Shown here piece after piece: positions 24,003 through 30,432 of a stretch of 64,000 nt of DNA; within the stretch, counting starts at the first letter, position 1; every line of letters begins with the position of its first letter. The translations under genes were made by a program, and so were the position numbers. The stretch spans positions 1,054,001 to 1,118,000 of the forward strand of contig NZ_CP036532.1 of the NCBI RefSeq assembly GCF_004331955.1, in the 5' to 3' direction. The notes under the pieces are model-generated. The model was not told the DNA's origin and made no database searches. It saw only the letters and a program-made list of their open reading frames with translations. The stretch comes from Roseitalea porphyridii. Lineage in GTDB: Bacteria; Pseudomonadota; Alphaproteobacteria; Rhizobiales; Rhizobiaceae.

Positions 24003-24905
24003 ATGTCCACGCTGTCGCATCTCGACCGTCTCGAAGCCGAAGCTGTCCACATCATGCGCGAAGTGGTGGCCGAGGCCGAGAACCCGGTCATGCTCTATTC
24101 GATCGGCAAGGACTCGGCGGTCATGCTGCATCTGGCGAAGAAGGCGTTCTATCCCTCGTTGCCGCCGTTCCCGCTGATGCACATCGACACCACTTGGAAG
24201 TTCCGCGAAATGATCGCTTTCCGCGACCGTCTGCCGGCCGAGACCGGCATGGAACTGATCGTTCACACCAATCCCGAAGGGCTGGCGCAGGGCGTCAATC
24301 CGTTCACGCACGGCTCGTCGGTCCATACCGACATCATGAAGACCCAGGCGCTGCGTCAGGCGCTTGACAAGCACAGGTTCGACGTCGCCTTCGGCGGCGC
24401 GCGGCGCGACGAGGAGAAATCTCGCGCCAAGGAGCGCGTCTTTTCGTTCCGCACCGCCGATCATCGCTGGGATCCGAAGAACCAGCGGCCCGAACCCTGG
24501 TCGCTCTACAATCCCAGAAAGCGCGCCGGCGAATCGATCCGCGTCTTCCCGCTGTCCAACTGGACCGAGCTCGATATCTGGCTCTACATCCACCGCGAGA
24601 ACATCGAACTGGTGCCGCTGTATTTCGCCGCGCCGCGCCCGGTTGTCAGTCGCGACGGCATGCTGATCATGGTCGATGACGACCGCATCCCGCTGCATCC
24701 GAACGAGGTGCCGCAGACCAGGATGGTGCGCTTCCGCACGCTCGGCTGCTACCCGCTGACCGGCGCGGTGGAGAGCGAGGCGACGAGCTTGCTCGACATC
24801 ATCCAGGAGATGCTGCTGACGACCACGTCCGAACGCCAGGGCCGGGCGATCGACCACGACCAGTCCGCCTCGATGGAAAAGAAGAAGCAGGAAGGCTATT
24901 TCTGA
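24003..24905 (+). CDS. cysD: Sulfate adenylyltransferase subunit 2 (CysD/NodP)
   Basis: With CysN it makes adenosine 5'-phosphosulfate (APS) from ATP and sulfate. The 300 residues show the PP-loop [16 protein letters not shown] (about 30-45), [30 protein letters not shown], and the usual C-terminus [10 protein letters not shown]. It starts after CGGAGCAACC. Its stop codon shares one base with the cysNC start (TGATG), so the subunits are translationally coupled. Confidence 0.96.
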
Positions 24906-26824
24906 TGGCCCATCACGTTTCGGACCTGGCCGCCTCCGACATCGCCGCCTATCTCGCCGCGCACGAGGAGAAGTCGCTGCTGCGCTTCCTGACCTGCGGC
25001 TCGGTGGACGACGGCAAGTCGACGCTGATCGGCCGGCTGCTCTATGAGTCAAAGCTCGTTTTCGAGGACCAGCTCGACGCGCTCTACAACGACTCGCGCC
25101 GGCTCGGCACGCAGGGAAACCGGCCCGATCTGGCGCTTTTGGTCGACGGGCTGGCCTCCGAGCGCGAGCAGGGCATCACCATCGATGTCGCCTACCGCTT
25201 CTTTTCGACCGAAAAGCGCAAGTTCATCGTCGCCGACACACCCGGACACGAACAGTACACGCGCAACATGGCCACCGGCGCCTCGACGGCTGATCTGGCG
25301 ATCATCCTTGTCGATGCGCGCAAGGGCATCCTGACACAGACGCGACGCCATTCGTTCATCGTCTCACGGCTCGGCATCCGCAATATCGTCGTCGCCGTCA
25401 ACAAGATGGATCTGGTCGATTATGACCCGGCCGTCTTCCGCCGCATCGAGCGCGAATATGCGCTTCTCGCCCGTGCGCTGGGCGAAGACCTCGATATCAC
25501 CGCGATCCCGATCTCCGCGCTCGAGGGCGACAATGTCATCGCGCCGAGCGCCGCCATGCCCTGGTATGACGGCCCGACCCTGATGGAGCATCTCGAGCAG
25601 GTCGAGGTCGAGGACGCTCGCGCTGCGGCGCCCTTCCGACTGCCCGTTCAGTGGGTCAACCGACCCGACCTCGATTTCCGCGGCTTTGCCGGCCAGATCG
25701 CCGGCGGCTCTGTGCGCGTCGGCGACCCCGTCACCGTTCTGCCCTCGGGGCTGACCAGCACCGTGACCGGCATCGTCACCATGGACGAGCAGCGCGCCGA
25801 GGCCATCGCCGGCCAATCGGTGACGCTGACCCTCGCCCACGAGATCGACGTCTCGCGCGGCGACATGCTCGTTGCGTCCGAAGCGCCCGCGCAGACCGGC
25901 GACCGGTTCGAGGCGACGATCCTCTGGATGGCCGATGAGAAGATGTTCCCGGGCCGGTCCTACTGGATCAAGACCGCCGGCGGTACGGCGCAGGCGACGA
26001 TCGGCGCGCCCGACCACCGCGTCGACATCAACACGCTCGCCACCGAACCGGCGCGCAACCTGGCGCTCAACGAGATCGGCGTGTGCGCGGTCACGCTCGA
26101 CCGGCCGATCGCGTTCGATGCCTATGCCGACAACCGCGACACGGGCAGCTTCATCCTGATCGACCGGCTGACCAACGCAACCGTCGGCATGGGCATGATC
26201 CACCGCGCGCTCAGCCGGTCCGCCAACATCCACTGGCAGGCGACCGAGATCGACAGGCAGGCTCGCGCCGCGCTGAAGGGCCATCGGCCCGCCGTGGTCT
26301 GGTTCACCGGCCTGTCGGGTTCGGGCAAGTCGACCATCGCCAATCTGGTCGAGGCGCGGCTGGCGGCGGCGCAGGTCCACACCATGCTGCTCGACGGCGA
26401 CAATGTGCGGCACGGGCTGAACAGGGATCTTGGCTTTTCCGACACCGACCGGGTCGAGAACATCCGCCGCATCGCCGAGGTGGCGCGGCTGATGACCGAG
26501 GCCGGACTCGTCACGCTCGTCTCGTTCATCTCGCCCTTCCGGGCCGAACGGCGCATGGCGCGCAGCCTTGTGCCCGATGGCGAGTTCTTCCTGGTTCATG
26601 TCGACACGCCGCTTAAGGTGGCCGAGGCGCGCGACCCCAAGGGTCTCTATGCCAAGGCCCGAGCCGGCGAGATCGCCAACTTCACCGGCATCGGCTCGCC
26701 CTATGAACGGCCCGAACAGCCCGACCTGCGCATCGACACGACGGCTCTCACGGCCCAGGAGGCAGCCGATCTGGTGATCGCCGAACTCGCAAGGCGCGGG
26801 ATCATTGCGGCGGCCGGCATCTAG
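24905..26824 (+). CDS. cysNC: Bifunctional sulfate adenylyltransferase subunit 1 / APS kinase (CysNC, NodQ type)
   Basis: 639 residues in two parts. The N-terminal GTPase (Cys[10 protein letters not shown] at 32-40, [19 protein letters not shown]) drives APS formation by CysD. The C-terminal kinase (Cys[10 protein letters not shown] near 469, [16 protein letters not shown]) phosphorylates APS to PAPS. The fusion is the NodQ arrangement of rhizobia. PAPS serves as sulfate donor for sulfotransferases or, in some bacteria, for reduction. No sulfotransferase or cysH lies in the window. Confidence 0.95.
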
Positions 26825-26887
26825 TCGTTTCGGCCAACTTGCGTTATCGCTCCGGCTTGGCGAACAATGCGCCAAATGGGAGCACGC

Positions 26888-28243
26888 ATGTCATTCTCAC
26901 CGCCGAACGTCGCCCTGACGGGGCTTGCCGCCGAACTGCGCAAGCGTGCGGAAACCGGCAACCCCATCCGTATCGGCCTGGTCGGCACCGGCGAGATGGG
27001 CACGGACATCTTCACCCAGGTCGCCATGATGGACGGCATCGAGGTGGCGACGGTGATGGAGCGCACCCCGGGCCGGGCCGAGCAAGGCTGCCGGATGGCC
27101 TATGGCGAGGCGGGCCGGACCCGGTTCGCCGCCAGCCATGACGCCGCCTCCGCGGCGATCGAAGCCGGCCGGATCGCCGTGACCGACGATCTTGACCTCG
27201 CCCTTTCGCACGATCTGGTGGACGTGGTCGTCGACGCGACCGGCGTGCCCGAAGCCGGCGCCGACATCGGCATGCGGGCGATCTCGTTCGGCAAGCATCT
27301 GATCATGATGAATGTCGAGTGCGACGTGTGCATCGGCCCCTATCTGAAACACGAGGCCGACAGGGCGGGCGTCATCTATACGCTCGGCGCGGGCGACGAG
27401 CCTTCGTCCTGCATGGAGATCATCGAGTTCGTCACCGCCATGGGCCATTCGGTCGTTTCGGCCGGCAAGGGCAAGAACAACCCGCTCGATTTCTTCGCCC
27501 ATCCCGACGACTATCGCGACGAGGCCGACCGCCGGAACATGAACGTCCGCATGCTGGTCGAGTTCGTCGACGGTTCCAAGACGATGGTCGAGATGGCCGC
27601 CATCGCCAACGCGACGGGCCTCGTCCCCGACGTGCCGGGCATGCACGGGCCGCGCGCCACCGTCGACCAGCTTGCCTCGGTGCTGATCCCCGAGGATGAT
27701 GGCGGCGTGCTGTCGAAACCGGGCTGCGTCGACTATTCGATCGGCAAGGGCGTCTCGCCCGGGGTCTTCGTCGTCATCAAGGCCGAGCACCCGCGCATCC
27801 ACGAGCGGATGGCCGATCTGAAGATGGGCGAGGGGCCCTACTTTACCTTCCACCGGCCCTATCACCTGACCTCGCTCGAGGTGCCGCTGACCGCCGCGCG
27901 GATCATGCTGACCGGCAAGCCCGACATGGTGCCGCTGCCGCGTCGGGTCGCGGAAGTCTGCGCCGTCGCCAAGCGCGACATCGCCGCCGGCGAGACGCTC
28001 GGCGCGGTTGGCGAGTTCTGCTACCGGTCCTTCACCATGACCGCCGAGGACGCCGCTTCGGCAAACGCCGTGCCCTGCGGTCTGCTCGAACGCGGCACGG
28101 CGATCGCGCCGATCGGCAAGGGCCAGTTGCTGACCTGGGACAATTCAAGGCCAAGCGCCCGCTCGCGGATCGCAGAACTGCGTGCCCGCCAGGACGCGAT
28201 GATGCCCGCGCCTGCCCCGGCCCGGGCCGTGCCCGCCGAATAG
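26888..28243 (+). CDS. DXP reductoisomerase-like protein (DRL), Rossmann plus SAF domain
   Basis: 451-residue member of the COG4091 group (annotated as homoserine dehydrogenase-like with a SAF domain). An NAD(P)H-binding motif lies at IRIGLVGTGEMGTDI (28-42), a central region has NVECDVCIGPYLKHEADR and TLGAGDEPSS, and the C-terminal SAF-like part contains AVAKRDIAAGETLGAVGEFCYRS. From what is known, the Brucella member DRL converts DXP to MEP and replaces DXR. The dxs gene is immediately downstream, which supports that role here. Paralogues with other substrates exist, so this remains an inference. The ATG at 26888 follows GGGAG by five bases; earlier ATGs lack a site. Confidence 0.8.
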   Translation: MSFSPPNVALTGLAAELRKRAETGNPIRIGLVGTGEMGTDIFTQVAMMDGIEVATVMERTPGRAEQGCRMAYGEAGRTRFAASHDAASAAIEAGRIAVTDDLDLALSHDLVDVVVDATGVPEAGADIGMRAISFGKHLIMMNVECDVCIGPYLKHEADRAGVIYTLGAGDEPSSCMEIIEFVTAMGHSVVSAGKGKNNPLDFFAHPDDYRDEADRRNMNVRMLVEFVDGSKTMVEMAAIANATGLVPDVPGMHGPRATVDQLASVLIPEDDGGVLSKPGCVDYSIGKGVSPGVFVVIKAEHPRIHERMADLKMGEGPYFTFHRPYHLTSLEVPLTAARIMLTGKPDMVPLPRRVAEVCAVAKRDIAAGETLGAVGEFCYRSFTMTAEDAASANAVPCGLLERGTAIAPIGKGQLLTWDNSRPSARSRIAELRARQDAMMPAPAPARAVPAE

Positions 28244-28391
28244 CTGGTTCCTTTCATGCAGGTAGGCCTCTGGTATTACCGGAGCGCGACGAAAAGGCGC
28301 TGGAACCGAACCGCTTTTCGGGCCATTGGGCGTGATCGTCCTCATGATGCCATGTTATGCCATTTCATGGCGAAACCGCTGAAATCCGCAC

Positions 28392-28432
28392 TGTCAATTT
28401 GGATTGACATCGGAAAGCACAGAAGTGACAAT
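28392..28432 (+). promoter_or_regulatory. Probable dxs promoter with inverted repeat
   Basis: TTGACA (28404-28409) and GACAAT (28427-28432) are spaced 17 bases, a good sigma-70 pair for this GC-rich DNA. The -35 box is the right arm of a perfect repeat TGTCAA-N6-TTGACA (28392-28409), so a repressor could cover it. A second TTGACA lies at 28438-28443. This is 72 bases before the dxs start. Confidence 0.6.
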
Positions 28433-28503
28433 CAAACTTGACACATCGGGATGTCGCATCATCGGAACGGCCGGAACACCCTGCGGCACGGGAGGCAACG
28501 ATC

Positions 28504-30432
28504 ATGAGCACCGGACCTGAAACGCCACTTCTCGACACGGTCCGCACGCCCGCCGATCTGCGCGCGCTCAGCGACGACCAGTTGCCGCAGCTTGCCGAGG
28601 AACTGCGCGCCGAACTGGTCGACGCTGTTTCCCAAACCGGCGGACATCTGGGTGCCGGGCTTGGCGTGGTCGAACTGACGATCGCCATCCATCACGTCTT
28701 CAACACGCCCCATGACCGGCTGATCTTCGACGTCGGCCACCAGTGCTATCCGCACAAGATCCTGACCGGTCGCCGCGACCGCATCCGCACGCTGCGCAAG
28801 GAAAACGGCCTGTCCGGCTTCACCAAGCGCGCCGAGAGCGAATATGATCCGTTCGGCGCGGCGCATTCGTCGACCTCGATTTCCGCAGGGCTCGGCATGG
28901 TCGAGGCGGCGCGCCATCAGGGCATCGCGCGCAACGTCATCTCGGTGATCGGCGATGGCGCCATGTCGGCGGGCATGGCCTATGAGGCCATGAACAATGC
29001 CGGCCACATGGATGCCCGCCAGATCGTCATCCTCAACGACAACGACATGTCGATCGCCCCGCCGACCGGGGCGATGAGCGCCTATCTCGCCCGGCTCGTT
29101 TCGGGCCGCACCTATATCGGCCTGAGGGAGGCCGCCAAGCAGTTCTCCAAGCGCATGCCGAAGTTCATTCAGGACAAGGCGCGCAAGACCGAGGAATACA
29201 CCCGCACCTTCTTCTCCGGCGGCACACTGTTCGAGGAGCTGGGCTTCTTCTATGTCGGGCCGATCGACGGGCACAATCTGAACCACCTGCTGCCGATCCT
29301 GCGCAATGCGCGCGACGCCGAGGTCGGGCCGATCCTGATCCATGCCGTCACCCAGAAGGGCAAGGGCTACGCACCGGCCGAACAGGCCGCCGACAAGTAT
29401 CACGGCGTCGCCAAGTTCGACGTGATCACCGGCGCCCAGGCGAAGGCCAAGCCGAACGCCCCGTCCTACACCAAGGTTTTCGGCCAGGCGTTGGTGCAAG
29501 AGGCCGAACATGACGACCGCGTGGTCGCCATCACGGCGGCGATGCCGTCGGGCACCGGCGTCGACATCTTCGAGAAGGCGTTCCCCGACCGCACCTACGA
29601 TGTCGGCATCGCCGAGCAGCACGCGGTGACCTTCGCCGGCGGTCTGGCGGCCGACGGCATGAAGCCGTTCGCGGCGATCTATTCGACCTTCCTGCAGCGC
29701 GCCTACGACCAGGTCGTCCATGACGTGGCCATCCAGAAGCTGCCGGTGCGGTTCCCGATCGACCGGGCGGGCTTTGTCGGAGCGGATGGGCAGACCCATG
29801 CCGGCTCGTTCGACATCGCCTATCTGGGCTGCCTTCCGGGCTTCGTGATCATGGCCGCCGGCGACGAGGCCGAACTCAAGCACATGGTTCGCACCGCGAC
29901 CGAGTATGACGAGGGGCCGCTCGCCTTCCGCTATCCGCGTGGCGAGGGCGTCGGCGTCGAAATGCCCGAGCGCGGCGAGGTCTTGGAGATCGGCAGGGGC
30001 CGGATCATGCGCGAGGGCGGCAAGGTCGCCATCCTGTCGCTTGGCGGCCGGCTCAAGCATGCCCTGCTCGCGGCCGAAAGGCTCGACGGGTTCGGACTGC
30101 CGGCGACGGTTGCCGACGCGCGTTTTGCCAAGCCGCTCGACACGGCTCTGATCGAACAGCTCGCGCGCAACCACGAACTGCTGATCACCGTGGAGGAGGG
30201 CTCGATCGGCGGCTTCGGCTCGTTCGTCGCCCAGCACCTGTTCAACGAGGGCCTGCTCGACAACGGCCTGAAATACCGCTCCCTGTTCCTGCCGGACCGG
30301 TTCATGGACCAGGCTTCGCCCGACCGCATGTACGAGGTTGCGGGTCTCGACGCCGACGGCATCGTCAAGGCCGTCTTCGGCGCGCTCGGGCGCGAGGAAA
30401 TCGCGCAGGAGGGCGGCGCCAGCATCGCCTGA
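28504..30432 (+). CDS. dxs: 1-deoxy-D-xylulose-5-phosphate synthase
   Basis: Condenses pyruvate and glyceraldehyde 3-phosphate into DXP, the first step of isoprenoid (and a branch to thiamine and pyridoxal) synthesis. The 642 residues show the thiamine-diphosphate site [16 protein letters not shown] (near 149), [24 protein letters not shown] and the catalytic Glu in [13 protein letters not shown] (near 370). The ATG at 28504 has a GGGAGG site; the upstream frame start at 28438 has none. It follows the DRL gene, pairing the first two steps of the MEP pathway. Confidence 0.96.

Follow-up and report, generated by a model that had tools for sequence, protein, structure and literature searches.

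Which enzyme converts DXP to MEP in Roseitalea porphyridii, and does the position of its gene directly before dxs have a meaning? The question is raised by a locus in a stretch of 64 000 nucleotides of the genome of this organism (the window). The original prediction was that an oxidoreductase gene at this locus encodes a DXR-like protein (DRL, also DXR type II), that the first two steps of the MEP pathway are encoded together here and that the organism makes isoprenoids without dxr. The genes concerned are the following.

26878..26882, + strand: GGGAG, a Shine–Dalgarno-like motif before the DRL start (direct reading of the sequence)
26888..28243, + strand: DRL ORF, 451-aa product (68.7 % identity to 3upl/3upy; PF21135, 226 bits; tree)
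28504..30432, + strand: dxs, 1-deoxy-D-xylulose-5-phosphate synthase, 642 aa (TIGR00204, 797.6 bits; PF13292)

The DRL start was assigned to the ATG at 26888; an alternative in-frame ATG lies at 26867, but the alignments of close relatives begin at 26888. The gene is the only DRL copy in the genome. The best solved relatives of its product were 3upl and 3upy, both structures of the Brucella abortus DRL (E about 1e-199), with 68.7 % identity over 434 residues and no gaps, and identity to the Roseitalea and Oceaniradius DRLs was 87–89 %. Pfam domains NAD_binding_3 and DRL_cat (PF21135, 226 bits) were identified and the Rossmann motif reads GLVGTGEMG. With dxs beginning 260 bp downstream on the same strand, the description of an oxidoreductase with a Rossmann motif directly before dxs was correct. 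No gap interrupts the alignment of the C-terminus with 3upl, but Pfam gave no SAF match at E≤0.001. A C-terminal SAF domain is reported in most members of the DRL family (PMC3847144), and the 'SAF-like C-terminus' of the window protein would rest on homology to this SAF-carrying family.

A published residue list ties positions to DRL activity or to divergence from the inactive DLO groups (PMC3847144). The Brucella residue was kept at 22 of the 23 positions checked, the exception being I310M. Conserved residues (numbering and roles from PMC3847144) include the substrate/fosmidomycin anchors K191, K193 and T229, the dimer residues E174, F178, R320 and Y322, and G121, H250 and V351. In quick maximum-likelihood trees, whose deep long branches are uncertain and whose local placement of the window DRL is not, the protein was placed among dxs-linked DRLs, in a clade close to that of Brucella (28 rows together, support 94). 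The 26888–28243 frame very probably encodes a true DRL (DXR type II), which would make MEP from Dxs-made DXP in an organism without classical DXR. A recent horizontal origin of the gene was considered and rejected, since its GC and GC3 match those of dxs and cysNC.

Profile searches with PF08436 and TIGR00243, which both give matches in 9 of 14 control genomes, found no match to PF08436 or to full-length TIGR00243 in the single-contig genome (3 539 672 bases, 99.99 % complete). The absence of dxr that had been predicted therefore holds for the whole genome. HMG-CoA reductase (HMGR) was searched for in the genome and none was found, and ispF, ispE, ispG and ispH were all detected by profile searches. 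The 440-aa open frame in which ispF sits is probably an ispDF fusion. This gene content fits class A of PMC3847144 (MEP pathway without DXR-I), with dxs, ispF, ispE, ispG and ispH present, ispD assigned through the putative ispDF fusion, and neither dxr nor HMGR. With the remaining MEP-pathway genes in place and dxr and HMGR absent, the pattern of gene presence and absence indicates an MEP-pathway user that would have to rely on DRL, a step we infer to be essential. DRL almost certainly makes MEP in this organism. From sequence we infer a catalysis in which DRL would rearrange and reduce DXP from the neighbouring Dxs to MEP, using NADPH, in the first committed step of isoprenoid synthesis; it would be a dedicated biosynthetic copy and the sole candidate enzyme in place of classical DXR.

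The distribution of the two genes was surveyed in 200 genomes of the family of the window organism, with a strong DRL match defined as E≤1e-60. Strong matches were present in 129 genomes, with dxr absent in 121 of these, and dxr was present in 65 of the other 71 genomes (Fisher P about 4e-36 for near-exclusion, kinship ignored). DRL instead of dxr is thus the common state in the family and is not unusual. Isoprenoid synthesis without dxr was borne out by these data, but not as a peculiarity of this organism, given the 121 of 129 DRL genomes without dxr. The survey agrees with an earlier report of DRL in place of dxr in the Rhizobiales (PMC3847144), and the window DRL confirms a known alternative to dxr and is nothing new as a type. 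It provides a clean complete-genome case of DRL-based isoprenoid synthesis, with the gene beside dxs, in a family in which dxr and DRL seldom occur together. Four family members (G044, G096, G191 and G052) had neither dxr nor a strong DRL match; the genome of one of them, G044, is a single contig of 1.5 Mb with a completeness rated at 100 %.

The uppS–cdsA–rseP–bamA cluster of the window organism (L145:3220-5195) contains no dxr, with a gap of 17 bp between cdsA and rseP, and elsewhere in the order dxr lies between these two genes at 47 of 49 loci. The empty slot was considered as a scar of replacement by DRL. This was rejected because all dxr loci within the family (69 of 69) lie outside the cdsA–rseP slot and the dxr proteins of the family form one clade in the tree. 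For the same reasons, the emptying of the slot appears to be separate from DRL replacement, with dxr either having left the slot in the ancestor of the family or having undergone a single loss and regain.

The assignment of the downstream gene is secure, with a TIGR00204 score of 797.6 against a cut-off of 466 bits and a start ATG preceded by GGGAGG. Adjacent DRL and dxs were found in Roseitalea, Oceaniradius, Oricola, Ahrensia and some Nitratireductor-labelled MAGs, and adjacency was not seen at the Brucella, Ochrobactrum, Mesorhizobium and Phyllobacterium loci examined. All 12 thinned rows of the dxs-linked clade were linked (support 100). The linked state requires three origins on the tree, comprising the main clade and two isolated loci, one with a gene intervening between DRL and dxs (L047) and one with the two genes convergent (L055). 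Adjacency is largely a feature of one clade. It is not due to chance, given the 12 of 12 linked rows and the three origins. The main paper on the DRL family does not discuss gene neighbourhood and no earlier description of the conserved pairing was found, making this a new detail. On the other flank, cysNC ends 63 bp upstream of DRL only in the genus of the window organism and is farther away or in another orientation in other clade members, so that transcription from the sulphate-assimilation cluster may extend into DRL (cysNC and DRL, window 24905–28243).

The lineage has kept DRL beside dxs, and this pairs the first two steps of the MEP pathway. Of the claim that these steps are encoded together, the genomic pairing stands; co-expression is a prediction to be set beside a candidate promoter of dxs in the spacer, which holds the following elements.

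28244..28503, + strand: DRL–dxs intergenic region, GC 54 % against 67 % around it
28392..28409, no strand assigned: palindrome TGTCAATTTGGATTGACA, whose right half ATTGACA is conserved in five genus members
28404..28432, + strand: candidate sigma-70-like dxs promoter TTGACA-17-GACAAT, from a consensus scan only, overlapping both repeat elements
28425..28444, no strand assigned: genus-conserved GTGACAATCAAACTTGACAC, candidate operator/promoter of dxs, kept in an otherwise poorly alignable spacer

Among the five genus members, only ATTGACA-n-AGTGACAATYNAASTTGACAC is conserved in an otherwise poorly conserved spacer, and a match to the 28425–28444 element with at most 3 mismatches is expected by chance 0.03 times per window. 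The conserved element and the overlapping TTGACA-17-GACAAT suggest a separate, controlled promoter of dxs in the spacer. The protein could be a true DRL whose adjacency to dxs has no regulatory meaning, the two genes being transcribed apart. Such an arrangement would agree with the promoter-like site and genus-conserved repeat in the 260-bp spacer and with the lack of DRL–dxs linkage in Brucella and Mesorhizobium. However, the whole clade retains the adjacency despite changes in the other flanks, the adjacency has arisen about three times, and a search of the spacer for a terminator-like site found none. Separate transcription is possible but, on this evidence, somewhat doubtful. The preferred reading is that of a kept pair, in which dxs may also be driven by its own regulated promoter.

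TGTCA/TGACA half-sites are repeated at window 28392–28444 and are conserved before dxs in the genus. A PpsR/CrtJ site was also considered and rejected, as TGTN12ACA is present at 28392 and at five further positions in the window, and one genus member does not share the site.

Many other DRL copies, at loci of relatives, head an operon with the order DRL, E1-alpha, E1-beta and E2 (L275:9004-19287, L276, L278, L271, L272, L041 and L043). The transport set of these operons is either a complete glucitol-type PTS with GutM and ptsP or an ABC sugar importer with a PfkB kinase and a sugar-binding regulator, and lpdA and lipA are sometimes present. Domain scans confirmed the E1, E2, PfkB and PTS families, and the operon E1-alpha scores just under the pyruvate dehydrogenase (PDH) cut-off. 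E1-type neighbours were found at 57 of the 192 DRL-family loci examined. These include the second DRL copy of two members of the genus of the window organism, which carry both a dxs-linked and an E1/E2-type DRL.

Where genomes had dxr, a real DRL and enough flanking sequence, DRL was in an E1/E2 operon in five of five cases (G029, G084, G085, G106 and G186), and 73 of 77 dxr-less genomes have a DRL outside such an operon (Fisher P about 5e-6, kinship ignored). In a further genome with dxr and DRL (G087) the contig ends just after DRL, with a kinase upstream, and two genomes were left aside, one with a fragment as its dxr match (G050) and one whose 'DRL' is only 31 % identical (G124). Four dxr-less genomes (G018, G067, G151 and G172) have an operon-type DRL only, so this copy would also be biosynthetic there or a gene is missing from the assemblies. 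DRL homologues of Listeria innocua and Ligilactobacillus salivarius plasmids (L273 and L274; 36–40 % identity) adjoin PTS glucitol genes and a sugar-binding regulator, and the Ligilactobacillus locus also has fructose-6-phosphate aldolase and transketolase.

Because every testable DRL in dxr-containing relatives is of the operon type, a second role may tentatively be proposed, in which DRL runs in reverse in a methylerythritol catabolic operon in many alphaproteobacteria and in Listeria and Ligilactobacillus. In this scheme, 2-C-methyl-D-erythritol would be brought in as MEP by the glucitol-type PTS, or by the ABC importer and PfkB kinase. Oxidation of MEP by DRL would give DXP, which a PDH/acetoin-dehydrogenase-like E1/E2 complex would split into acetyl-CoA and glyceraldehyde 3-phosphate. 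Such cleavage is conceivable: like acetoin, DXP is an acyloin that carries a methyl ketone, and an acetoin-dehydrogenase-like complex could split it into these products. A published account describes the DXR reaction as reversible (PMC13001223), and nothing relevant on methylerythritol catabolism was found in the literature searched. The four dxr-less genomes that have an operon-type DRL only count against the proposal. In copies that replace dxr, such as the dxs-linked window DRL, the same enzyme would have been put to a second use. If true, this proposal would explain DXR-II in bacteria with dxr or without any MEP pathway, define a route of methylerythritol use and answer why DRL is kept beside dxr. 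The wider gene context of DRL is more surprising and more novel than the window DRL itself.

The direction in which the window DRL is used cannot be read from homology alone, because similar paralogues sit in these catabolic-looking operons. A window enzyme working mainly from MEP to DXP, and not in biosynthesis, would be in keeping with the 57 of 192 loci with E1-type neighbours and the second copies in two genus members. It is nevertheless very improbable, as the neighbour is dxs and not E1/E2, the protein is placed outside the E-type clade and the genome offers no other candidate for an essential step. That the window protein is instead a DLO-type paralogue (a DXR-II-like oxidoreductase without DXR activity), with MEP made by another source, is hardly credible: DLO1 and DLO2 groups do exist in the superfamily and tested members did not complement (PMC3847144), but the tree places the window protein with Brucella DRL and the DLO-like plasmid proteins (taken as such at 29–37 % identity) far outside both, every key DRL residue is present and the genome has neither dxr nor a second DRL. 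The identification as DRL, and not as a non-DRL COG4091 paralogue, is upheld by this grouping and by the DRL-diagnostic residues, and the window DRL is best regarded as a biosynthetic enzyme.

A different sensitivity to fosmidomycin had also been expected. The sensitivity of DRL is indeed lower than that of DXR-I (PMC3847144), but DRL is still inhibited by fosmidomycin (PMC3424233). Whole-cell resistance of Brucella has been ascribed to a missing GlpT importer (PMC3424233). Since DRL itself is inhibited and resistance is put down to GlpT loss, little follows on drug sensitivity, and the expectation of a different sensitivity is fair but modest.

Among known systems, the closest is the B. abortus DRL/DXR-II (3upl and 3upy), which shares 69 % identity, the same length and the key residues with the window DRL and belongs to a neighbouring clade; unlike in the window, DRL is unlinked to dxs at the Brucella and Ochrobactrum loci examined. 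The E1/E2-operon DRLs of Mesorhizobium, Nitratireductor and Sinorhizobium are of the same family, at about 65 % identity, but have different neighbours and form a largely separate clade. The DLO1 and DLO2 oxidoreductases share the superfamily and the Rossmann domain, but DRL-diagnostic residues, T229 and H250 among them, are missing from these proteins (PMC3847144), and DLO-like proteins branch outside. Classical DXR (IspC, TIGR00243) carries out the same reaction, with inhibition by fosmidomycin expected for both enzymes, but is analogous to DRL and not homologous beyond the NADPH domain (PMC3847144), and the genome of the window organism gave no match to the DXR profiles.
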